From positions 1-45,039 of the forward strand of contig JAUIGU010000033.1 in assembly GCA_030432595.1 (NCBI GenBank): 45,039 nt of DNA, in the 5' to 3' direction. The position numbers and the translations under genes were made by a program. Below the pieces are notes generated by a model that saw nothing but the letters and a program-made list of their open reading frames with translations, was not told the DNA's origin and did no database searches. This stretch comes from Phycisphaerae bacterium. Its GTDB lineage: Bacteria; Planctomycetota; Phycisphaerae; Phycisphaerales; Phycisphaeraceae. This document shows, one piece after another, positions 31,857 through 42,652 of the stretch (position 1 is its first letter; every line of letters begins with the position of its first letter).

Positions 31857-33779
31857 TTACGACTCTCGGACCGCACGCAAACCACGGAGCAGCAGTTCCA
31901 ACAAAACCAGAAACCCCAGCGCCGCGACCACCGTGCTCGGCTCGGGCACCAGCGTTACGGTCACGGTGGCGTCGGGGTGTAGGGCGGCCGATGCACCGCG
32001 GCCACCAATTTGGCCCACAAAGCTGAACGACGAGCCATCGGACAGTATGCCGGAGATTGCTTCACCACGTTCGGTGATCGTATATGGTTCGCCCGGGACC
32101 AAGCCTGCAATCGATTCTCCGCCAATCCTGAACTCGCTCCCATGCAAATGGAGTTCACTCTCCGCGAAGGCTCGAAATAAATTGCCAAGACTCCCGCCGC
32201 TGATATTCACGACGCTGCCTGGTAGGGCCAAGATATTGGTGCCGACGCTGCCGCCGCTGATGTTGACCACCCCTTCGGACACCTCGAGGTAGTCGCCGAC
32301 TACTCCGCCGTCAATGTTGAGGGTTGCGCCGACCACGGCGAAGTCGCTATCGAGCACCCCGCCGTCCCGGACCGTCAGCGTCTGACCGGCGCGGAGCCCG
32401 GAAGGGTCGGCACCGGCCGGTGCCGTGAGCACCATCGGTGTCGGGTCGGCCGGCGGCAACGCCTGGGTCGGGGCGGCCAAAGAGACCCCGCTTAACGCGT
32501 CATTAGAGTAGGCGTTGAACACGAAGACCGAGCCGTCCGCCAGAGTGCCGGTGAAGACATCACCCAAGTCGAGCGTGACGGTTGAACCGCTGTAGACCGC
32601 GCCGTTGAGCCGAAACTCGCCGCCGATCAGTTCAACGTCGCTGCCGACGTTTGTCTGAAACGCTCGGCCGAAGGTGCCGCCCTGAATGGTCACGACGCTG
32701 CCGTCACCCGCCGTGAATCTTGTACCAAAGCGACCACCGGTGATATTCACGTCGCTGCCAGCCCCCGCTTCGAAGAAAGAATCGACCTCTCCACCGCTGA
32801 CTGCCACGACGCTGCCGGCGTGGGCCGAGAAAAAGGTACCCACCCGGCCGCCGCTGATGGTCACCTCGCTCCCGACGTAGGCGCCGCTGAGGCCCACCGA
32901 ACCCGCGGTGATGTTCACCACGCTCTCGACCACTTCGAGGCCGGCAGCGATCTCACCGCCTTCGACATTCAGCGTGGCCCCAACCGCCCCAAAATATTCT
33001 CCAAGCACGCCGCCGTCACGAACCGTGAGGGTCTGACCCGCCCGCAGGCCCGACGGCCCGTCCGTCATGGCGGTGGTCAGCACGCGCGGGTTGAGATCGG
33101 GCGGGGGCAACGGCACGGGCGGCGCGGTCAGCGTCACCCCGCTGAGCGAATCCCCGCCTAGCGGACTGAAGATGAAGACCGAGCCGTCTTCCAGGGTTCC
33201 CGTAAAAAGGTCGGCGTCGTTAAGCGTGATGACCGATGCGTTGTAGCTGTTCTGGTTCAAGCGGAACGCCGCGCCGATCAGTTCCACGTCGCTGCCGGGC
33301 ATCGCTTCAAATAACCTTCCGAAGCTGCCGCCACGGATGCTCACCACGCTGCCCGCGTCGGCATCAAAGCCCCCGCCCAGCCGACCACCACTCATGTTGA
33401 CTTCACTGCCGGCAAAAGCTTGGAAATTCGAGCCCACCACGCCGCCGCTGATATTGACCTCGCTGCCGCTTCTCGCATCAAAAGAAGAACCCACCACGCC
33501 GCCACGCACGTTCACCTCGGTGCCGGCGATGGCATCGACAACGGTCCCGATGCGGCCGCCCTCCGAGAGATTGAGTTGCGTCGTTGATCCGAAGGCAGAG
33601 CCGATCTGTTGACCTAACTCTATGTCGGGGTCGGGCGGCAAGTTCAGCACCGTATCGAAGCGCGACGGATCGTCGGGGCCGGAGTTGAAAACCTGGGCAA
33701 CCGACGGAGAAACCACCGCAGCGCAAATCCACACCGTCACCACCGGAGCCCGCATCCACCTCAGCAACCGGCAAAACAT
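31857..33779 (-). CDS. Secreted beta-solenoid repeat protein with PEP-CTERM tail
   Basis: A 640-residue protein with a signal peptide (RAPVVTVWICAAVVSPSVAQ, cleavage near 29) and a C-terminal VPEPSTVVAALGFLVLLELL followed by basic residues, the PEP-CTERM exosortase signal. The middle consists of many ~20-residue units of the type GSVVNISGGSVG / GSEVNVSGGRLG, predicting a right-handed beta-helix. The units are arranged in three modules separated by LEDGSVFIF, LADGSVFVF and LSDGSSFSF blocks; the first two modules end in SLSGVTL/SLA-type strands. SGLRAGQTLTVRDGGVL is duplicated. A ribosome binding site GGGAGAAG precedes the ATG at 33779. It is probably a cell-surface or matrix protein; no catalytic residues were found. 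Confidence 0.85.
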   Translation of the reverse strand: MFCRLLRWMRAPVVTVWICAAVVSPSVAQVFNSGPDDPSRFDTVLNLPPDPDIELGQQIGSAFGSTTQLNLSEGGRIGTVVDAIAGTEVNVRGGVVGSSFDARSGSEVNISGGVVGSNFQAFAGSEVNMSGGRLGGGFDADAGSVVSIRGGSFGRLFEAMPGSDVELIGAAFRLNQNSYNASVITLNDADLFTGTLEDGSVFIFSPLGGDSLSGVTLTAPPVPLPPPDLNPRVLTTAMTDGPSGLRAGQTLTVRDGGVLGEYFGAVGATLNVEGGEIAAGLEVVESVVNITAGSVGLSGAYVGSEVTISGGRVGTFFSAHAGSVVAVSGGEVDSFFEAGAGSDVNITGGRFGTRFTAGDGSVVTIQGGTFGRAFQTNVGSDVELIGGEFRLNGAVYSGSTVTLDLGDVFTGTLADGSVFVFNAYSNDALSGVSLAAPTQALPPADPTPMVLTAPAGADPSGLRAGQTLTVRDGGVLDSDFAVVGATLNIDGGVVGDYLEVSEGVVNISGGSVGTNILALPGSVVNISGGSLGNLFRAFAESELHLHGSEFRIGGESIAGLVPGEPYTITERGEAISGILSDGSSFSFVGQIGGRGASAALHPDATVTVTLVPEPSTVVAALGFLVLLELLLRGLRAVRES

Positions 33780-33934
33780 CTTGACTTCTCCCAATCCGTA
33801 CTGGAGCACGCAATAAACCGAACGTGCAGGCTCGCGCGGAAAACCGAAAGTGTACCCGGCCTGCGGGGAATCACCAGCCTTCTCAAATATAAGTCGATTG
33901 GCGTTATTCCACGCTCAAAGTCGCAAGAAAAAGG

Positions 33935-33997: not shown

Positions 33998-36067
33998 ATG
34001 CCATATCGCCTGCAACCAATCCTTCAGTCCGCGGCCTTGGCGGGGGTCACCGGCGTGGTCGCCGCGGTGGGCACGCCCGCCACCTCCGCCCCCACCGGCG
34101 GCCCCGACGCCGCGTTCCGTGACACGCGGTCGCTGTGGATGTCGCGCTTCGAGTTCACGACCGAGGCGCAGATCCGTGAGCGCGTCGAGGCCATCGCCCA
34201 GGCCGGATTCACCGACCTGTACTTCCAGGTCCGCGGGCAGGGCGACGTGCTCTACCCCTCGGCCATCGAGACGTGGGACAACAAATACGGCGGCGGCATC
34301 GGCGCCGGGACCGGGCCGGGCTTCGACCCGCTCGCGGTCGCGCTCGACGAGGCGAATCAGCACGGCCTGGACCTGCACGCGTGGATCAACGCCATCCCCA
34401 TGTGGCGCGACTCGTCCTCGCCGCACACCGCGCCCAGCGACCCCAACCACTTCTACAACCAACGCCCGGACCTGCGGCTCAAGGACGTCAACGGCAACGA
34501 CATGCCCCTGTCCACCGGACAATACGTCGGTGTCAACCCAACGCACCCCGACACCGCCGACCACATCGCCGACCTCGCGGCCGAGCTCACCACCAACTAC
34601 GGCGCGCTCGGCCTGGACGGCGTGCACCTCGACTACATCCGCATGGTCACCAACAGCGCGTTCAGCCCGCTGACCTACCCGCAGGACCCCGCGACCCGTG
34701 CCCGCTTCAACTCAGAGACCGGGCTCAACGCGGCGAGTTCCCCCGACGCCTACAAGGAGTGGGTCGGCGGCAAGATCACCACGCTCGTCGAGCAGGTCCG
34801 CGACACGATCCACGCCATCGACCCGCAGGCCGAGCTGAGCGCCGCGGTCTGGCGGGACTACGACATCGGCAGCCGGGACTACCAGCAGTTCGCCGACGAC
34901 TGGGTGGAGAACCAGTCGCTCGATGTGGCCTACCCGATGGTCTACACGACCAGCGATTCGCTGTTCCGCGACAACGTGCTCAAGTGGAAAGCGCTGAACC
35001 AGCAGACCCCCGTCGCCATCGGCCTGGGCTCGTACCTGCACGGCGGCAGCCAGCAGACCATCGACCAGCTCGAAACCGCCCGCTACCTCGGCGCCAACGG
35101 GTTCAACATCTTCTCCTACGGCACGCTGTTCTCCGGCGGCTCGCTCACCTCCTTCGGCCAGGACGTCAAAGACTACATCGACACAATCGCCGCGCGGCCC
35201 GACGACAACCTGCCCATCACGACCTTCGAGCCCGGCGACACCAACTACTTCGACATCTCGCCGCAGCTCTCCGGCTCGAACGTCGGCATCGGCGAGAACA
35301 CCACGGCCACGCTCGTCACCGACACCGTCTTTGAGGGCACCACCGCCCAACGCCTCGACATCGACGGCGACCCCGGCGGCTGGCTGCTGCGTCATTTGTC
35401 CGGTTCGTCGTCCGGCATCGCCAACCCCGACGGCAACCGCGAGTTGATCGCCGAAGGCTACCTGGGTTTCTGGCTGCGCACGCTCGACGCGGGCATCACC
35501 GTGCGCATCGCCGTCGACGACGTCGAGGGCACCGCCGAGCGCGGCCTTGAAAAACCCGTCATCGCCGACGGCACCTGGAACCTCTACCAGTGGGACCTCG
35601 GCGACGACGCGCAATGGGAGGGCTGGGTCAACGGCAACGGCGAAATCAACGGCCAAACCGTTACGCTCGACTCGATCCAGTTCTTCGGTGCCGGCGACGC
35701 GACCGTCTGGCTCGACGCCGTGATGTTCAACCCGTTCGGCACGCTCAGCGACGCCGTGTCCATGCTCGCCGGCGACTACGACGGCAGCGGCCAGGTCGAA
35801 CAGGCCGACCTCGACCTCGTGCTCCAGAATTGGGGCATCGACGCCGATGCCAACGGCGTCCCGACGGGCTGGACCCACGACCTGCCCGACGGCCTGATCG
35901 ATCAGGCGGAGCTCGACGGCGTGTTGCTCAACTGGGGCGACACGGCCGCGCCGGATTTCCACGGCATCAACGTGCCTGAACCCGCGACCGCACTGACCGT
36001 GATGCTCGCGCCCTGGGCCTTGTCGCGGCGCACCAAGGAGCATCGGACTCGGCACCCCGCATCCTGA
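33998..36067 (+). CDS. Secreted GHL10/DUF187-type glycosidase-like protein with dockerin-like module and PEP-CTERM tail
   Basis: A 689-residue exported protein. After a signal peptide (~1-30), residues ~45-385 form a TIM-barrel of the glycosyl-hydrolase-like 10 family: DTRSLWMSRFEFTT, GFTDLYFQVRGQGDVLYPS, GLDLHAWINAIPMW, GVHLDYIRM and LDVAYPMVYTTS. A jelly-roll-like carbohydrate-binding region follows (~400-580, FEPGDTNYFDI to VWLDAVMFNP). A dockerin-like EF-hand pair begins near 592 (GDYDGSGQVEQADLDLVLQN; second half DGLIDQAELDGVLLNWG). The end is VPEPATALTVML with a basic tail, a degenerate PEP-CTERM. Substrate unknown; the position in a glycosidase cluster suggests polysaccharide or peptidoglycan breakdown at the surface. 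The start is set by the strong ribosome binding site. Confidence 0.85.
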   Translation: MPYRLQPILQSAALAGVTGVVAAVGTPATSAPTGGPDAAFRDTRSLWMSRFEFTTEAQIRERVEAIAQAGFTDLYFQVRGQGDVLYPSAIETWDNKYGGGIGAGTGPGFDPLAVALDEANQHGLDLHAWINAIPMWRDSSSPHTAPSDPNHFYNQRPDLRLKDVNGNDMPLSTGQYVGVNPTHPDTADHIADLAAELTTNYGALGLDGVHLDYIRMVTNSAFSPLTYPQDPATRARFNSETGLNAASSPDAYKEWVGGKITTLVEQVRDTIHAIDPQAELSAAVWRDYDIGSRDYQQFADDWVENQSLDVAYPMVYTTSDSLFRDNVLKWKALNQQTPVAIGLGSYLHGGSQQTIDQLETARYLGANGFNIFSYGTLFSGGSLTSFGQDVKDYIDTIAARPDDNLPITTFEPGDTNYFDISPQLSGSNVGIGENTTATLVTDTVFEGTTAQRLDIDGDPGGWLLRHLSGSSSGIANPDGNRELIAEGYLGFWLRTLDAGITVRIAVDDVEGTAERGLEKPVIADGTWNLYQWDLGDDAQWEGWVNGNGEINGQTVTLDSIQFFGAGDATVWLDAVMFNPFGTLSDAVSMLAGDYDGSGQVEQADLDLVLQNWGIDADANGVPTGWTHDLPDGLIDQAELDGVLLNWGDTAAPDFHGINVPEPATALTVMLAPWALSRRTKEHRTRHPAS

Positions 36068-36104: not shown

Positions 36105-36764
36105 TCAAGCGGTCCCACGCCGACGCCGTGCGAACGCGAGCAACGCCGCCAGCGCGGCCGCGCCGGCGGGTTCGGGCACGTAGGTCACGTCGAAGTACGA
36201 GCCGGGCAGGATGTCGAGGTAGTCGTCCGCCCCCGCGGCGGGGTCGGTGTTGAAGAGGCGCAGCGACTCGGGGGCCATCCACCGGATCGGGCCGACGCCC
36301 CCGCCCTGAACCTTCGCGCCGCCGTCGTGGCCGAACAGGACGAACGCGTCGGGGCCGGCGGAATACGTCCCGCCGTTGGTGGTGACGAGCATGTTGCGGG
36401 TGGCGATATCGCGGTGAACGATGCCTTCGGCGTGGAGGCGCGGCTCGCCGAAGGTGACCAGGTCGAACGTGAACGCTTCAACGCCGTCCGGGTCGCCGGG
36501 CGGCGCGGCCCCGTTGTAAATCGCGTTGGTGACCTGGTGGGTCTGGCCCTGATAGAGCGGGTTCTCGCCGTCGCGCGTCTCGGAAAACGAAACGTCGGCG
36601 GTGAACGCCCCGATGAATTGGACCACGTTGGGGTGGTTACCCAGACGGGCAAGCACGTGGGCCTCGTGACGAAACTCCGCCTTCGCCTTCTCGTCGGCGA
36701 AACTCTGAGTAGCGACACCACCGAGAACCAACCACAGGAGCGCAAACACAAGACGAAATGACAT
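36105..36764 (-). CDS. Secreted kinase-like protein with PEP-CTERM tail
   Basis: A 219-residue protein with a signal peptide (~1-23) and a PEP-CTERM end (VPEPAGAAALAALLAFARRR, ~196-215). Between them are pieces of a eukaryote-like tyrosine-kinase fold. An alpha-C-like helix with Glu34 runs EFRHEAHVLARLGNHPNVVQ (~30-49). The catalytic loop is EGIVHRDIATRN (HRD at 117-119, Asn124). A P+1-like segment GPIRWMAPESL (~158-168) follows. The glycine loop and VAIK lysine are absent, DFG reads LFG (143-145), and residues ~55-100 replace the beta-sheet and hinge. It should therefore not bind ATP normally and would sit outside the cytoplasm. GGAGG six nt upstream sets the ATG at 36764. It lies 75 bp after the GH5 gene on the same strand. 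Function unknown; an exapted pseudokinase is an inference. Confidence 0.7.
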   Translation of the reverse strand: MSFRLVFALLWLVLGGVATQSFADEKAKAEFRHEAHVLARLGNHPNVVQFIGAFTADVSFSETRDGENPLYQGQTHQVTNAIYNGAAPPGDPDGVEAFTFDLVTFGEPRLHAEGIVHRDIATRNMLVTTNGGTYSAGPDAFVLFGHDGGAKVQGGGVGPIRWMAPESLRLFNTDPAAGADDYLDILPGSYFDVTYVPEPAGAAALAALLAFARRRRGTA

Positions 36765-36839
36765 GAATCTCCTCCTTCTAACGCACTCAGCGTACCGGGA
36801 ACAGGCGTGACCTCCAAGCCCAAACACCGCCGATCTCGC

Positions 36840-38081
36840 TCAAGGGCCCGTCAGTAAATCGCGCAGCTTCTCGTTCTCCTCGATCTTCACCTCGGGCAGG
36901 CCGCGGATCCACGCCTCGATGGTTTCGAGCGGGTCTTCGCGCCAATTGGGCGATTGCATGGGCTCGGCGTTGGTCCACAGGCCCCACGACGCGTCACCGA
37001 TGCCACCCTGTTGTTTGTACTCCTTGAACGTCCAGGCACACATCGCCACGCCCGGGACGTCCGCAAGGTCGAAGTAACGCTTCATCATCTCGGCGCCGCC
37101 CGCCTCGTCGCGGACGACGTTGAACTCGCCGATCAGCAGCGGCGACTGCCACGCCTCCATCAACTCGACGTAGCGCGGCAGCGTGTCGGTGAAGAACGCA
37201 TCGTGCACTTCCGGCCTCGGCTCACCCCAGCCGAAAAACCCCGGGTAGAAGTGCATGTCGTACATGACATTCGTCTGCCCGAGTTCATGGGGGTCGCCGT
37301 ATACCCGGTCAAGACCGTTGGACCAGCCCGGGAAGCAGAGGATGACGTCCGGGTCGATTTCGCGCATCTCGTCGTACCACCGGTAGACGAAGTCGCGCAG
37401 CCGCCGCCGTCCGCCGCCCCAGGGCTCGTTGAGGGCTTCGTACGCGAACACGGCGGACCGGTCTTTGTAACGCTCGGCGATGGCTTTCCAGATATGCATG
37501 GCGCGGTCCTGCGCCGCCGGCTCCTCGAAGAAACGGTTGACGCCGGCCCGACCCGAGGGCCGATGGTTGTTCTGCCGACGCGGCGCACCGTGCATGTCGA
37601 TCAACACGTAGATGCCGCGCGCCTCGCACGCCGCGACCGCCCGGTCGAAGTGCCGGTACCAGTCGTCCTTGAGCACGCCGGGCTCGGCCTCGACCACGTC
37701 GTAATCGAATCCCAGCCGTACGAAGTTGAAACCGAACGCGCGGATGCGGTCGAAGTCCGCGTCGGTGAGGAAGCTCTCATACCACAACTCCATGAGTCGT
37801 TCGGCCTCGTCCTGCCCGAAACGCTCGACAAAGATCTGCTTGAGCGTCCAGCCGTCCGGCAGGCGGTGGGGGTTGTCCGGAAACACGCCCGGCTCGATGA
37901 GCAGCCAGTTCCCCAGATTCACACCGCGAAGCGGCAGAGCCTGGCCCGTCTCCGCCTCGACCACGGACGTCCCCCGCGCGGCCAGGCGAGGCATCGGCTC
38001 GGGCAGGGTGCACGCGGTCATGGTCAAACACACCAGAAATAACAAAAGCGAAAAACACAATGACGGGATCGATGGTTTCAT
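36840..38081 (-). CDS. GH5 family glycosidase lipoprotein (cellulase or exo-beta-glucanase-like)
   Basis: A 413-residue protein with a lipoprotein signal ending LVCLTMTAC (Cys near residue 24). The GH5 barrel shows LPLRGVNLGNWLLIEPGVFP (~45-64), FDRIRAFGFNFVRLGFDYDV, GIYVLIDMHGAPRRQNNHRP, the acid/base Glu in YEALNEPWGGG (~residue 217) and the nucleophile Glu in LLIGEFNVV (~residue 318). The GVNLGNWL start is typical of the exo-1,3-beta-glucanase/cellulase branch. It acts at the membrane surface on beta-glucans, judged by family. It is divergent from the GH43 gene across a shared 286-bp regulatory region and followed by the kinase-like PEP-CTERM gene, with which it may be co-transcribed. Confidence 0.9.
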   Translation of the reverse strand: MKPSIPSLCFSLLLFLVCLTMTACTLPEPMPRLAARGTSVVEAETGQALPLRGVNLGNWLLIEPGVFPDNPHRLPDGWTLKQIFVERFGQDEAERLMELWYESFLTDADFDRIRAFGFNFVRLGFDYDVVEAEPGVLKDDWYRHFDRAVAACEARGIYVLIDMHGAPRRQNNHRPSGRAGVNRFFEEPAAQDRAMHIWKAIAERYKDRSAVFAYEALNEPWGGGRRRLRDFVYRWYDEMREIDPDVILCFPGWSNGLDRVYGDPHELGQTNVMYDMHFYPGFFGWGEPRPEVHDAFFTDTLPRYVELMEAWQSPLLIGEFNVVRDEAGGAEMMKRYFDLADVPGVAMCAWTFKEYKQQGGIGDASWGLWTNAEPMQSPNWREDPLETIEAWIRGLPEVKIEENEKLRDLLTGP

Positions 38082-38318
38082 GTGATTCAGAACGCTGAAG
38101 GGCGTGAGGACATGCGACAGAACGGAGATTTGCCCCGATGATACGGAAATGGACATCGGCAGCCTTCCCGTGGCCCGATGCCTCGCTCCGATGGCGATCA
38201 GCCGGGCGGCAGAGGGTCGGCGGGAGGCTTTCGACTCGCCCGCCTCTTCGCACCCGACCGCCGAAACACCGATCCGGAAAAAGGCGGAAATCACGCGTTT
38301 ATCGGGTATCCTTGGGGC

Positions 38319-38344: not shown

Positions 38345-38367
38345 TTGACCGAATCCCCGAGGTCTCA

Positions 38368-41300
38368 ATGAAACACCTGTGGAAGACGACGGCGGTGATT
38401 GCGGGCATGGTGTTTGGCCACGCCGGGAGATCGCACTCGCAGCTTTCGGGCGAACTGCTCGCCCACGACCCGTCGACCGTGCTCTTCGACAACGGGCGGT
38501 ACTGGTACTTCTCGACCGGCGACATGCTGGGCGTGCGCTCGTCGAGCGACCTGGTGAACTGGACCGGCGAGCCGACCGCGTTCAATGCGGTGCCTTCGTG
38601 GGTGCCGGCGCAGGTGCCGGGCTACTCGGGCAGCTCGCTGTGGGCGCCCGACGTCATCGAGCTCGGCGGGACGTACTACCTCTACTACTCCGCGTCGATC
38701 TTCGGGACCAAGCTCTCGGGCATCGGGTACGCGTCCAGCCCGACGCTCGACCCCGACGCGCCCGGTTACGGCTGGACCGACCACGGCCTGGTCATCGGGT
38801 CCAACCACGGCAGCCCGTACAACGCCATCGACCCGTCGATGATGCTCGACGAAACCACGGGCAAACTGTGGATGACCTGGGGGTCGTTCAACAACGGCAT
38901 CTACGTCAAAGAGATGAACCCGCTCACCGGCGCGCCTCTTTCGGGAAGTCCGGGCGTGAACGTCGCCGCGCCCGGGCCAACGCCCGAGATCGAGGGCGCG
39001 GCGATGATGCAGCACGACGGCTACTACTACATGTTCGTCAACTGGGGCGGCTGCTGCAGCGGCGAGAACAGCACCTACAACATGCGCGTCGGACGCAGCC
39101 TCAGCCCGACCGGCCCGTTCCTCGACCGCGACGGCGTCAACCTGCTCAGCGGCGGCGGCACGCTCTTCCTCGACGACGACGGCCGCAAGATCGGGCCCGG
39201 GCACTTCAGCCTCACCGACGTCAACGGCCAACAGAAGTTCAGCTACCACTACTACGACGGCGGCCGCGACGGCTTCCCCACCTTCGCCATCCGCGATCTG
39301 CACTGGACCGCCGACGGCTGGCCGAGCGTCTGGGAAGTCAACCCCAATTGGATCGGCGTCAGCGGCAGCACGTGGAACACCGCGAGCAACTGGACGAACA
39401 GCGAAATCCCCGACGGCGTTGGCCACGCCGTGAACTTCGCGTCGCAAAACGGCGGGCCGTTCTCCGTAGCACTCCCGACCGGCGGCGCGACGGTCGGCAC
39501 CGTCAACTTCCGCGGGTTCTCCAGCTACACCATCGGCAACACCGCCGGCCCGACGCTGACGATCGACGACACGAACGGCGAGTCCGCGACCATCAACGTC
39601 GCCGAAGGTTCGCACACGATCAACGCGCCGATCTCCGCCCAGGACACGCTCGAGGTCAACGTCACACCCGACGCCAGCAACCTCACGCTCGGCGGGCAGG
39701 TCAACGGCTCCGAGCTCCGCAAGTTCGGCGACGGCAACCTCGAACTCGCCGGCACCAACGTCTACTCCGGCACCGCCTTCGTCCACCACGGCACGCTCAC
39801 CATCACCGGCGGCACCACCATCGGCGGCTTTATCAGCGTCGGCCAGATCCTCGGCGACGACGGCACGCTGTCCGTTGAGGGCAGCGGCTCGCTCACCGCC
39901 TACTTCGACCTCAACATCGGCGACACCGGCGCGTCCGACCTCGACGCCACCGGCACGCTCTTCATCAAAGACCAGGCCAGCATCACCCTCAACACCGGCG
40001 GCGGCTTCTACGTCGGCTCGGGCTTCTTCAACAACACTCAGGCCCAGGGCATCGTCCACCAAAGCGGCGGCACCCTCACCGTCAACCGTCCCAACGACGC
40101 GTCGTTCGTCCTGGGCGGCCGCACCTCCGACGACGCCGAGGGCACCTACAACCTCACCGGCGGCACCGTGAACGCCAACACCAACGTCCAAGTCGGACGC
40201 TTCGGCCAAGGCACCGTCAACCAGAGCGGCGGCACGTTTAACGCCAACCAAGACGTTTCGATCGCCCAGCGCACCGGCTCGATCGGGCACTGGACCCTCG
40301 ACGCCGGCACGCTCAACCAGACCAACGCCGCCCGCATCTTCTTCATTGGTCAAGGCGGCGACGGCACGCTCACCGTCAGCGGCACCGGCGAGGCCAACAT
40401 CGCCGGCCAGGTCATCCTCGGGCAAACCTCCGTCGCCGACGGCACCCTCAACCTCGACGGCGGCGTCTTCACGGCCCAGCTCATTTCGCGCGGTACGGGC
40501 TCGGGCGTCGTCAACCTCAACGGCGGTGTATTGCGGGCCGGCACCGACCAGACCCCGCTGCTCCAGGCACTCACCGCCGTCAACGTGCAGGCCGGCGGCG
40601 CCGTCATCGACACGCAGAACTTCGGCGTCAACCTCGACCAACCGCTGAACCACGACCCCGCGCTGGGCGCGACCCCCGACGGCGGGCTGACCAAGCGCGG
40701 CGCCGGCACGCTCCGCCTCACCGGCAACAACGGCTACACCGGCGACACCGTGATCGAGGCCGGCACGCTCGTGCTGCTCAACTCGGGCTCGATCAACGAG
40801 TCGCCGATCCTCGACGTCCGCCCCGGCGCGACCCTCAACGTCGCCGGGGCCAACGGCTTCAACGGCGGCACCGTCGTCAGCGGCCAGGCCCTGATCAACG
40901 ACGGCACGGTCGATGGCGACATGGCCGGCCTCACCGGCGCGTCCGTCGCCGGCGCGGGACACTTCGCCAACCATCTGACGATGCAGGCCGGCTCGACGCT
41001 CAAGGTCGGACGGCTGAGCGACCCGCCGGACTTCATCACCACCGGCCCCGCGCCGCTCGGCGGGTTCTCGGCTGAGACGATGTCGGTCGCCGGCACGGTC
41101 CAGCTCGACAGCGGGGCCACGCTCAGCCTCGACATCGCCAACAGCGAGATCAACGACCGGCTCGTCGTCGGCGGCACGCTCAACGCCGGCGGCTTCCTGA
41201 ACGTCCGGCTCGACAGTTCGGGCACGCTCGGCCTCGGCGACAGCTTCGACCTGCTCGACTTCAACGCCGTCGCCGGGACCTTCGATTCGGTCATCCTCCC

Positions 41301-41688
41301 CGCGCTGAACGCCGACCTGAACTGGGACACGTCCGGCCTGCTGCTCGACGGCGTCATCCGCATCGTCGGCGACACGCTGTTCGGCGACTACAACGGCTCG
41401 GGCCAGGTCGAACAGGCCGACCTCGACCTGGTCCTCCAGAACTGGGGCGTGAACACCGACGCCAACACCGGCGGCGCCGTCCCGACCGGCTGGACCCACG
41501 ACCTGCCACAAGGCCTCGTGGATCAAGACGAACTCGACGGCGTGCTGCTCAACTGGGGCGACACCGCCGCGCCCGACTTCCGAAGCGTCAACGTCCCCGA
41601 GCCGACCACGCTCATCGCCCTCGCGCCTGCGCTGGGGTGTTGTTCACGCCGTCGCCGGTCAAATATCAAGCGGGCGCGGCCAGGCTGA
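38368..41688 (+). CDS. GH43-type arabinanase-like protein with beta-strand repeats, dockerin-like module and PEP-CTERM tail
   Basis: A 1106-residue exported protein. A signal peptide (~1-24) is followed by a five-bladed GH43 domain (~28-330). Its catalytic residues are readable: the base Asp in LAHDPSTVLF (~34), the pKa modulator Asp in AIDPSMML (~154) and the general acid Glu in TPEIEGAAMM (~208). The TPEIEGA form points to endo-1,5-alpha-arabinanase-type enzymes. From ~350 to ~1000 lie many autotransporter-associated beta-strand repeats (LTKRGAGTLRLTGNNGYTG, GTLTITGGTTIGG). A dockerin-like EF-hand pair starts near 1006 (GDYNGSGQVEQADLDLVLQN), and VPEPTTLIALAP plus a basic tail forms a PEP-CTERM. 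The start is set by GAGGT 5 nt before the ATG. The 3' end overlaps the convergent GH43-like gene by 23 bp. Confidence 0.9.
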   Translation: MKHLWKTTAVIAGMVFGHAGRSHSQLSGELLAHDPSTVLFDNGRYWYFSTGDMLGVRSSSDLVNWTGEPTAFNAVPSWVPAQVPGYSGSSLWAPDVIELGGTYYLYYSASIFGTKLSGIGYASSPTLDPDAPGYGWTDHGLVIGSNHGSPYNAIDPSMMLDETTGKLWMTWGSFNNGIYVKEMNPLTGAPLSGSPGVNVAAPGPTPEIEGAAMMQHDGYYYMFVNWGGCCSGENSTYNMRVGRSLSPTGPFLDRDGVNLLSGGGTLFLDDDGRKIGPGHFSLTDVNGQQKFSYHYYDGGRDGFPTFAIRDLHWTADGWPSVWEVNPNWIGVSGSTWNTASNWTNSEIPDGVGHAVNFASQNGGPFSVALPTGGATVGTVNFRGFSSYTIGNTAGPTLTIDDTNGESATINVAEGSHTINAPISAQDTLEVNVTPDASNLTLGGQVNGSELRKFGDGNLELAGTNVYSGTAFVHHGTLTITGGTTIGGFISVGQILGDDGTLSVEGSGSLTAYFDLNIGDTGASDLDATGTLFIKDQASITLNTGGGFYVGSGFFNNTQAQGIVHQSGGTLTVNRPNDASFVLGGRTSDDAEGTYNLTGGTVNANTNVQVGRFGQGTVNQSGGTFNANQDVSIAQRTGSIGHWTLDAGTLNQTNAARIFFIGQGGDGTLTVSGTGEANIAGQVILGQTSVADGTLNLDGGVFTAQLISRGTGSGVVNLNGGVLRAGTDQTPLLQALTAVNVQAGGAVIDTQNFGVNLDQPLNHDPALGATPDGGLTKRGAGTLRLTGNNGYTGDTVIEAGTLVLLNSGSINESPILDVRPGATLNVAGANGFNGGTVVSGQALINDGTVDGDMAGLTGASVAGAGHFANHLTMQAGSTLKVGRLSDPPDFITTGPAPLGGFSAETMSVAGTVQLDSGATLSLDIANSEINDRLVVGGTLNAGGFLNVRLDSSGTLGLGDSFDLLDFNAVAGTFDSVILPALNADLNWDTSGLLLDGVIRIVGDTLFGDYNGSGQVEQADLDLVLQNWGVNTDANTGGAVPTGWTHDLPQGLVDQDELDGVLLNWGDTAAPDFRSVNVPEPTTLIALAPALGCCSRRRRSNIKRARPG

Positions 41689-42652
41689 TCCGTGTCGGCG
41701 CGTCGCGGTCGCACGTCAGCCGCCCGGCCTTGAGCACCAATTCCGTGACTTGCACGACCGACCGGCGTTGTTGGTGAAGATTGCCGCCGGGCCCGTTGGT
41801 GCCGTCAAGGCGTCGGCCCGGGTGCGTGAAATAAAACAGGTACGCCCGTCCGTCGTTGACGACCACGTCTGCGTGATGGCCCGGCCCCGCGTCGTCTGCG
41901 CCCGTGCCCGCAACATTCAAAAGATTCGGTCCCTCCTGCCGCGTCCAACGATCGGCGCCGCCGCTGTGGTACACCCCCAGGCCCTTCCACTCATCGACGA
42001 TCAGCCAGAACCGATCTCCGAAAAAGAACGCGACCGGCCCCTCGCCCGGCGGCCCGTCGTAAGCCTTGCCCCGATCGGTCCACGCGAACAGGTCGTCGCT
42101 GTCCGCGAAACACACCGCCTTGTTGTCGCGCTCCTCGTTGTAGAACATCCGCCAACGCCCGTCCGGCAATCGGATGATGTCGGCATCAATCACGCGATCA
42201 CTCGCCAGTTCGATCGGCCCGACGACGTCCCACGCCTTGAGGTCCGGGCTGATCAGGTGCACGATCTGCCGCGGGTGTTTCCAGTCCGTGAACACGCCCG
42301 GCACGTGCGTGAGATACATGTGAAACACGTCTTCGTGCCGGAGGACCGCCGGCGCCCAGTGTGTCTGCGCCCCGCCGGCCGCGAGGTCGATGTCCGCGGT
42401 TCCGACGTAGCTCCAGGACGCGCCGCCGTCGGTGGACTTGGCGATCCCGATGCGCGTGCCGTGCACCCACGCCACGCCGTCGCCGGGCCCGGCGTCCGGC
42501 ACGCTGGCCCGCCGGTTGGTGTAGAGCATGAACCAGGCGTCGGCCGCCGGGTTTCAAACCACGACCGGGTCGGCCGCGCCGTCGTGCACCGGGTCAATAA
42601 ACAACGGCTTGTCCGCGAAACGCTCCCGAGAAGATTCGAACGGCAACGTCAT
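41666..42652 (-). pseudogene. GH43-like glycosidase gene interrupted by an in-frame TGA
   Basis: From the ATG at 42652 (GGTGGCGGG upstream) the frame reads PLFIDPVHDGAADPVVV, then TGA at plus 42554-42556, then NPAADAWFMLYTNRRA in the same frame and on to the end at 41666. GH43-like relatives usually have a Trp (TGG) at this place, so a single G-to-A change explains the stop. The rest is well preserved: GTRIGIAKSTDGGASWSYVG, THWAPAVLRH, VIDADIIRLPDGRW and GEGPVAFFFGDRFWLIVDEW. A protein restarted at the internal ATG (42529) would lack the HDGAADP segment with the presumed catalytic Asp. There is no signal peptide. It lies 29 bp after the secreted Cys/His protein gene on the same strand. Sequencing error or UGA readthrough are alternatives. 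Confidence 0.8.

Follow-up and report, generated by a model that had tools for sequence, protein, structure and literature searches.

A small planctomycete protein family with export-like ends and a middle that appears to derive from a tyrosine-kinase-type domain

Protein kinase domains are usually taken to be cytoplasmic switches, and a 2024 survey (PMC11032199) predicts that planctomycete kinases which span the membrane have their kinase domains on the cytoplasmic side. In a 45,039-nucleotide stretch of DNA from a Phycisphaerae bacterium (the window), a gene encodes a protein, P0001, in which kinase-like blocks stand in kinase order between a signal-like start and a PEP-CTERM-like tail. The locus raises the question whether this protein is a kinase, whether its middle descends from one, and what such a domain might do at the cell surface. 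Reading the window again bore out the frame, the coordinates and the motifs given in an earlier note on this DNA (Table 1). The gene is a single open frame of 219 codons, encoding 219 residues, with its ATG at 36764 and its stop codon at 36105-36107, and AAGGAGGAG lies four bases upstream of the ATG.

Table 1. Positions in the window of the P0001 gene, its parts and the neighbouring glycoside-hydrolase matches.
Feature	Position	Strand	Basis
P0001 gene, exported-looking tyrosine-kinase-derived PEP-CTERM-type protein (putative), 219 aa	36105..36764	-	frame, Pfam match, relatives
AAGGAGGAG, likely ribosome-binding site	36769..36777	-	read from sequence
Signal-like stretch, residues 1-23, proposed cleavage after SFA	36696..36764	-	by eye; similar N-termini in 7/7 members
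alphaC/beta4-like block, residues 28-52 (Glu34, HPNVVQFIG)	36609..36683	-	aligned to ROR2 and kinase profile; PN[VI]V[QR]F in 4/7 members
NPLY-x8-NAIY, residues 68-83, double NPxY-like module	36516..36563	-	N-to-N 12 in six long members; integrin beta tails best match, sub-threshold
Catalytic-loop block, residues 113-128 (EGIVHRDIATRNMLVT)	36381..36428	-	Pfam, ROR2, family and kinase-profile alignments
Probable DFG position, here G137-P138-D139	36348..36356	-	alignments; L077 with DFG in that column
P+1 loop block, residues 158-168 (GPIRWMAPESL)	36261..36293	-	RW[MTS][AP]PE in 7/7 members
PEP-CTERM-type tail (borderline), residues 196-219 (VPEP, hydrophobic stretch, RRRR)	36108..36179	-	TIGR02595, scores in text
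GHL10	in 33998-36064		Pfam
GH5	in 36843-38195		Pfam
GH43	in 38350-41685		Pfam
GH43 match below cut-off	in 41669-42529		Pfam

The segments from which the earlier note had proposed a kinase were all found, namely Glu34, HRDIATRN at residues 117-124 with Asp119 of the HRD and Asn124 of the catalytic loop, and GPIRWMAPESL. The profile search that it had suggested gave a match to the Pfam family PK_Tyr_Ser-Thr (PF07714) with an E-value of 3.1e-12 (46.8 bits, cut-off 23.1), the best stretch aligning residues 110-169 with positions 118-177 of the 258 in the profile. Pkinase (PF00069) scored slightly below its cut-off (5e-7; 29.8 bits, cut-off 31.7). The top match in the PDB was ROR2 (2.6e-9), and the best 60 of 1117 matches (E up to 10) were all tyrosine kinases. 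Judged by these scores, the kinase likeness of P0001 lies far beyond chance, and the alignments show its middle to derive, at the level of sequence, from the centre of a domain of the tyrosine-kinase type, reaching from about alphaC/beta4 to the P+1 loop.

P0001 is not an orphan. It belongs to what, by sequence, is a small, real protein family, since a few distant relatives share the same oddity. Six genomes together carry seven open-frame genes of the family, and genome G438 has a frameshifted copy besides; apart from P0001, five of the genes come from four further genomes of the window genome's order and one from a probably stray contig. A scan of genome_contigs with six exact 8-residue patterns returned 52 stretches, of which two were confirmed: P0002, a short relative of 127 residues on contig L057, and a Gemmataceae match (L058; 29% over residues 11-128). 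When P0002 was used as a query against 51 genomes, a full-length relative of 219 residues (P0003) was identified in G438, which belongs to the same family as the window genome, and P0003 in turn, searched against 400 genomes of the order, gave members in five (the window genome G000, G438, G580 with two genes, G476 and G640). A family profile found members in 3 of the 163 genomes of G580's family and in 2 of 397 genomes of the class, and no additional genome among either. Searches of the same-genus genome G001, among them those with P0002 and P0003, found no member. The counts for the phylum (with P0001, below), the order (with P0003) and the class (with the profile) rest on 7 first-look candidates scored per genome, and that for G580's family (with the profile) on 18, a depth at which weak members may escape. 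Zero matches were obtained among plasmids and phages with the full P0001 protein as query, and zero confirmed loci among the IMG/VR viral contigs with P0001, P0002, a WMAPE...YVPEP DNA pattern and the family profile. Candidates that were set aside include a PEP-CTERM-like protein without kinase motifs in G440 (L068), a frame in G036 that runs antisense to a PEP-CTERM-like gene (L069), and three loci in which the match is confined to the tail region (L070, L072 and L073). As far as our searches reach, the family has not been described before; among the matches listed for the open-licence PMC literature, no paper dealt with a kinase-derived PEP-CTERM protein.

Two members lie in settings of their own. 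The contig that carries P0002 (L057, 1-3016) is 3 kb long, is binned as Acidimicrobiales, and has a sulfatase-like gene (by eye) beside P0002. The genome of this bin has zero PEP-CTERM matches at E ≤ 0.1, and the contig is therefore probably stray in it. In G438, the second copy (L071, 1302-1694, reverse strand) lies at a contig end, shares 88-90% identity with L067 where the two match, and is frameshifted downstream of the APE block; it could be a duplicate, or the bin could contain a second strain. Both G438 copies are followed downstream by a PEP-CTERM-like gene (L067, 3-188, and L071, 550-1200, both on the reverse strand), which begins MAKKISGSVGKGGKN and has no obvious signal peptide; its complete version, at L071, matched no Pfam or NCBIfam family above cut-off.

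The members are kinase-like to different degrees. E-values against PF07714 were 1.3e-9 for P0003, 1.9e-10 for L076, 7.8e-20 for L077, 6.8e-10 for L078 and 1.3e-9 for L080; P0002 (2.8e-4) remained below the cut-off. L077, the most kinase-like member, is covered by a single stretch (residues 43-181 against profile positions 58-180), and its residues 112-184 align without gaps to EphA5, through the DFG up to the P+1 loop. This continuous match, together with the DFG that L077 keeps, supports the descent from a kinase that the earlier note had suggested. The HRD and APE segments, whose conservation in homologues that note had made the touchstone of its reading, are retained: HRD is present in six of the seven members (P0002 has NFHLAARN instead), A[AT]RN in all seven, and RW[MTS][AP]PE likewise in all seven, one of them with PPE for APE. 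PN[VI]V[QR]F occurs in 4/7. The asparagine of RN and the glutamate of PE are 42, 44, 43, 43, 43, 43 and 40 residues apart in the seven members, and from this glutamate to the VPxP tail there are 30, 33, 29, 31, 29, 27 and 27 residues.

The kinase type was assessed by comparing the two Pfam models. PF07714 outscored PF00069 in 7/7 members (for P0002 only PF07714 was reported, below cut-off), and the reverse held for 10/10 ordinary kinases from the member genomes and related ones, both at full length and when trimmed to a 125-residue piece that includes the catalytic loop. The tyrosine-kinase form claimed for the motifs was thereby upheld. With the family profile as query, the best 60 of 1084 PDB sequences were all receptor tyrosine kinases, and the features of the tyrosine kinase group (an HRDLAARN-type loop, RW in the P+1 loop, a higher score with the TK/TKL model than with Pkinase) are found in the family. 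It resembles the eukaryotic (receptor) tyrosine kinase domain in its HRD[IL]A[AT]RN loop, its PxRWMAPES P+1 loop, the order and spacing of the blocks and, in some members, the alphaC/beta4 block. It belongs to the same superfamily as the planctomycete Ser/Thr kinases (PF00069), which are present in the same genomes, and differs from them in its catalytic loop: 44 of 47 planctomycete kinases have HRDxKPxN, and the remaining three HRDVSPGN, HRDVKTSN and HRDLKLAN. Of 392 genomes in the phylum, three matched a DNA pattern for HRDxA[AT]RN (HSD also allowed), and the control gave 2 hits; the matches were the P0001 gene, HSDVAARN in a multicopper-oxidase-like protein (by eye), and a short frame outside any kinase context. 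D[FLM]G after an AAR loop was seen, out of 110 loci, solely in L077 and in L083, a duplicate of that locus. Searching the 392 genomes with P0001 gave a match at E ≤ 1e-5 in 50; apart from the P0001 gene, those listed belong to open frames at least 336 residues long, and among the loci L009-L056 a kinase catalytic loop could be read for 47 of 48, with A[AT]RN in 0/47. According to a 2005 survey (PMC1262709), bacterial kinases are generally nearer to Ser/Thr than to tyrosine kinases, and the 2024 survey (PMC11032199) reports no or very few Ser/Thr kinases in Phycisphaera. Since no ordinary kinase examined carries the tyrosine-kinase signature, the kinase piece may come from a tyrosine-kinase-type gene that was probably transferred from outside the phylum. 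By what route this signature entered genomes where the ordinary kinases examined are of the Ser/Thr type is a question that the family would raise.

Of four catalytic features compared, the HRD aspartate with the catalytic asparagine is present, whereas the glycine loop with the VAIK lysine, the DFG aspartate, and an APE followed by alphaF-alphaI are not. With three of the four missing, P0001 is, as read from its sequence, kinase-derived and not a kinase by membership. In agreement with the earlier note, neither glycine loop nor VAIK lysine was seen in P0001, which leaves no space for them ahead of residue 24-30, nor in the other members, none of which has space between the signal stretch and the first block (7/7). 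At the other end APE is present in P0001, yet just 30 residues separate it from VPEP; since only 27-33 residues lie between APE and the tail throughout the family, alphaF-alphaI would be absent from all members. The profile alignments of L078 and L080 extend some 20-30 residues beyond APE at low score, possibly a trace of the next segment. 

The true DFG of L077, 13 residues downstream of the RN asparagine, also indicates where P0001 lost its own. In the family alignment, in the profile of 47 kinases and in the family profile aligned to EGFR, the DFG column falls on G137-P138-D139 of P0001 and not on LFG (residues 143-145). The lost motif therefore probably sits at GPD, and the earlier reading of LFG as its remnant is probably a misalignment; a counterpoint is P0002, which has DLG in the LFG column, six residues beyond the expected place. 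A true DFG at that place is thus kept in 1/7 members, and its absence from the other six, together with the missing ATP lobe and the short distance from APE to the tail, agrees with the loss of catalysis that had been proposed. L077 offers a concrete case for tracing how a kinase loses its catalytic parts. The two-lobed fold is retained in known pseudokinases. The family shares with pseudokinases such as ROR2, described as one in PMC13259870, a kinase-derived domain with an incomplete catalytic set, and is unlike them in missing both ends of the domain.

The tail places P0001 among PEP-CTERM-type proteins by a narrow margin. It reached 17.2 bits against TIGR02595 in a genome scan (cut-off 16) and 13.2 bits in a whole-protein scan, so that the PEP-CTERM anchor previously claimed stands in the one and falls short in the other. 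P0003 (17.1) is the second of the two members that pass the cut-off; P0002 (12.5) and L078 (14.9) stay below it, and the Pfam/NCBIfam scan gave no match to TIGR02595 or PF07589 for the tails of L076, L077 and L080. Other proteins of the genomes of these three carry VPxP tails of the same kind, and by eye all seven members have a signal-like start and a V/I-P-x-P tail. Residues 1-23 of P0001 resemble a Sec signal, likewise by eye; taken with the borderline family scores, this makes export plausible. In the window genome there are 132 matches to TIGR02595 at E ≤ 0.1, and an exosortase gene is therefore likely to be present. The family has in common with PEP-CTERM/exosortase proteins (TIGR02595, PF07589) the signal-like N-terminus, the VPEP/VPxP motif, the hydrophobic stretch and the arginine-rich end; it departs from them in its kinase-derived middle, and five of seven members are below cut-off or unmatched. 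PEP-CTERM proteins have no discernible homology beyond the tail and a Pfam match in fewer than 10% of cases, according to the founding paper (PMC1569441).

A second pattern, which like the family itself is absent from the earlier note, was found in the region that separates the first kinase block from the second. Six members (6/7), the long ones, have NP[LM][YF]-x8-N-x-x-[YH], a pair of NPxY-like motifs whose asparagines are 12 residues apart. A profile of this region against 177,635 PDB sequences gave 10 matches up to E 10, the first eight of which are integrin beta tails (best E 0.064). In Pfam, 4/6 segments match Integrin_b_cyt only (E 0.017-0.17, at most 15.3 bits against a cut-off of 23.4) and 2/6 have no match; two PDB searches, each with a single sequence, found nothing. 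The two motifs 12 residues apart are what the family shares with the integrin beta cytoplasmic tail (PF08725), from which its sub-threshold scores and bacterial, exported-looking context set it apart, and this likeness is a lead, not a result. Among the open-licence PMC papers searched, none mentions both planctomycetes and NPxY. Alternatively, the pair could be a drifted beta5/alphaD region, because it lies 47-54 residues ahead of HRD, about the spacing from beta5 to HRD in tyrosine kinases.

The six long members are 25-51% identical to each other, and this identity is unevenly distributed. In blocks picked once the alignment had been seen, mean pairwise identity is 0.62 for the HRD block, 0.67 for the APE block and 0.44 for the NPxY module, compared with 0.25-0.33 for the other mature blocks, 0.47 for the tail and 0.30 for the signal. 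At identical degenerate residues in the HRD, APE and NPxY blocks, 40-42% of codons differ. Block-wise conservation combined with synonymous changes fits selection on the protein. The most constrained blocks (HRDxA[AT]RN and PxRWMAPES, then NPLY-x8-NPxY) may be binding or structural surfaces.

Fold prediction, which the earlier note had proposed as a check on the kinase C-lobe, added little. AlphaFold gave a mean pLDDT of 37.5 with the seven sequences and of 37.4 with six mature sequences led by L077, both of low confidence; the latter consists of strands only, even at the expected helix alphaE. A Foldseek search of the PDB with this all-strand model returned 38 matches (best E 1.0), 0 of them kinase domains. 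Neither model has a kinase fold, and both are so weak that they say little. When relatives with the same scaffold and without kinase blocks were sought in five genomes, the matches listed were, besides kinases and generic tails, just one weak partial match, L090. L090 is an ordinary PEP-CTERM protein from the same genome; its weak alignment spans the part between the LFG region and the tail, with DPTRGVESLRL at the place of the family's GPIRWMAPESLRL.

Taken together, we consider it somewhat probable that P0001 is exported to the surface, has no catalytic activity, is made from a shortened domain of the tyrosine-kinase type, and acts by binding. The protein would leave the cytoplasm by Sec, an exosortase would recognise and cut its tail, and its body, at the surface of the cell or within the exopolysaccharide, would work by binding and not by phosphorylation. 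Speaking against this reading are the non-kinase AlphaFold models, the tails of which 2/7 pass the cut-off, the absence of HRD in P0002 and the patchy distribution (5/400). If the reading is correct, the family would show that part of a kinase domain can be reused in bacteria as a non-enzymatic extracellular module. A rather unlikely alternative is that a beta-sandwich surface protein, a usual kind among PEP-CTERM proteins, took up, or gained by selection, kinase-like blocks and an integrin-tail-like NPxY pair, imitating animal or protist adhesion signalling, and never kept the kinase fold itself. The all-strand hint and the weak L090 match keep this idea alive, and the integrin beta tails at the head of the matches to the NPxY module would suit it as well. 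L077, however, is kinase-like between the motifs too, with kinase spacing, as descent predicts, and the integrin matches are all sub-threshold, with two segments unmatched and the single-sequence PDB searches empty; nor was the membrane-near part of integrin tails seen in the family. The bacteria might also have taken up a eukaryotic-type tyrosine kinase gene, lost its catalytic ends, and now display the core and the integrin-tail-like NPxY pair at their surface, where eukaryotic PTB/FERM-type proteins or kinases would recognise them or be captured. We would give this proposal little credence; were it true, a bacterial surface protein would mimic two components of animal adhesion signalling simultaneously.

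Further explanations were weighed against the preferred reading of a binding protein. A kinase fragment accidentally fused between export signals and now decaying without selection would account for the patchy distribution, for the frameshift in one of the two G438 copies and for the widely varying kinase likeness of the members. It is nevertheless improbable, given seven open frames in six genomes whose long members have diverged so far, and the conserved blocks with many synonymous codon changes argue against a mere relic. HRD and the catalytic asparagine in six members and the DFG of L077 might suggest that the protein is exported as an active kinase whose ATP site is unusual. This we regard as very improbable, since all seven members lack space for the glycine loop and VAIK, one in seven has DFG at the expected place and no space is left for alphaF-alphaI; moreover, ATP is not known to be supplied outside the cytoplasm. 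A chance or convergent origin of the short motifs could at most be argued from P0002, the least similar member and the one below the Pfam cut-off, and is hardly worth entertaining in view of E-values down to 7.8e-20 and kinase spacing in all members.

In the window, the P0001 gene sits amid glycoside-hydrolase genes (Table 1). The open frames adjoining the other members differ from these (by eye), and we therefore propose no partner gene. G001 has a homologue of the GHL10 gene (80% DNA identity) flanked by other frames, and the stretch around it contains no match to the P0001 gene or to GH5. The frame at 31857-33809 on the reverse strand encodes a protein of 650 residues with imperfect internal repeats (GS.VNISGG.VG) and, by eye, a PEP-CTERM-like end; it had no Pfam match at 0.001. 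A C-terminal stretch (DYDGSGQVEQADLDLVLQNWG...), presumably dockerin-like, is present in the window at about 35763-36003 and 41382-41604, and recurs in the same genome (G000: C42, C33 and C36) with 81-88% DNA identity. Its identity to the genus relative G001 is 78-82%, so that the copies within the genome are about as close or closer, a hint that gene ends have been copied as cassettes or have undergone gene conversion.
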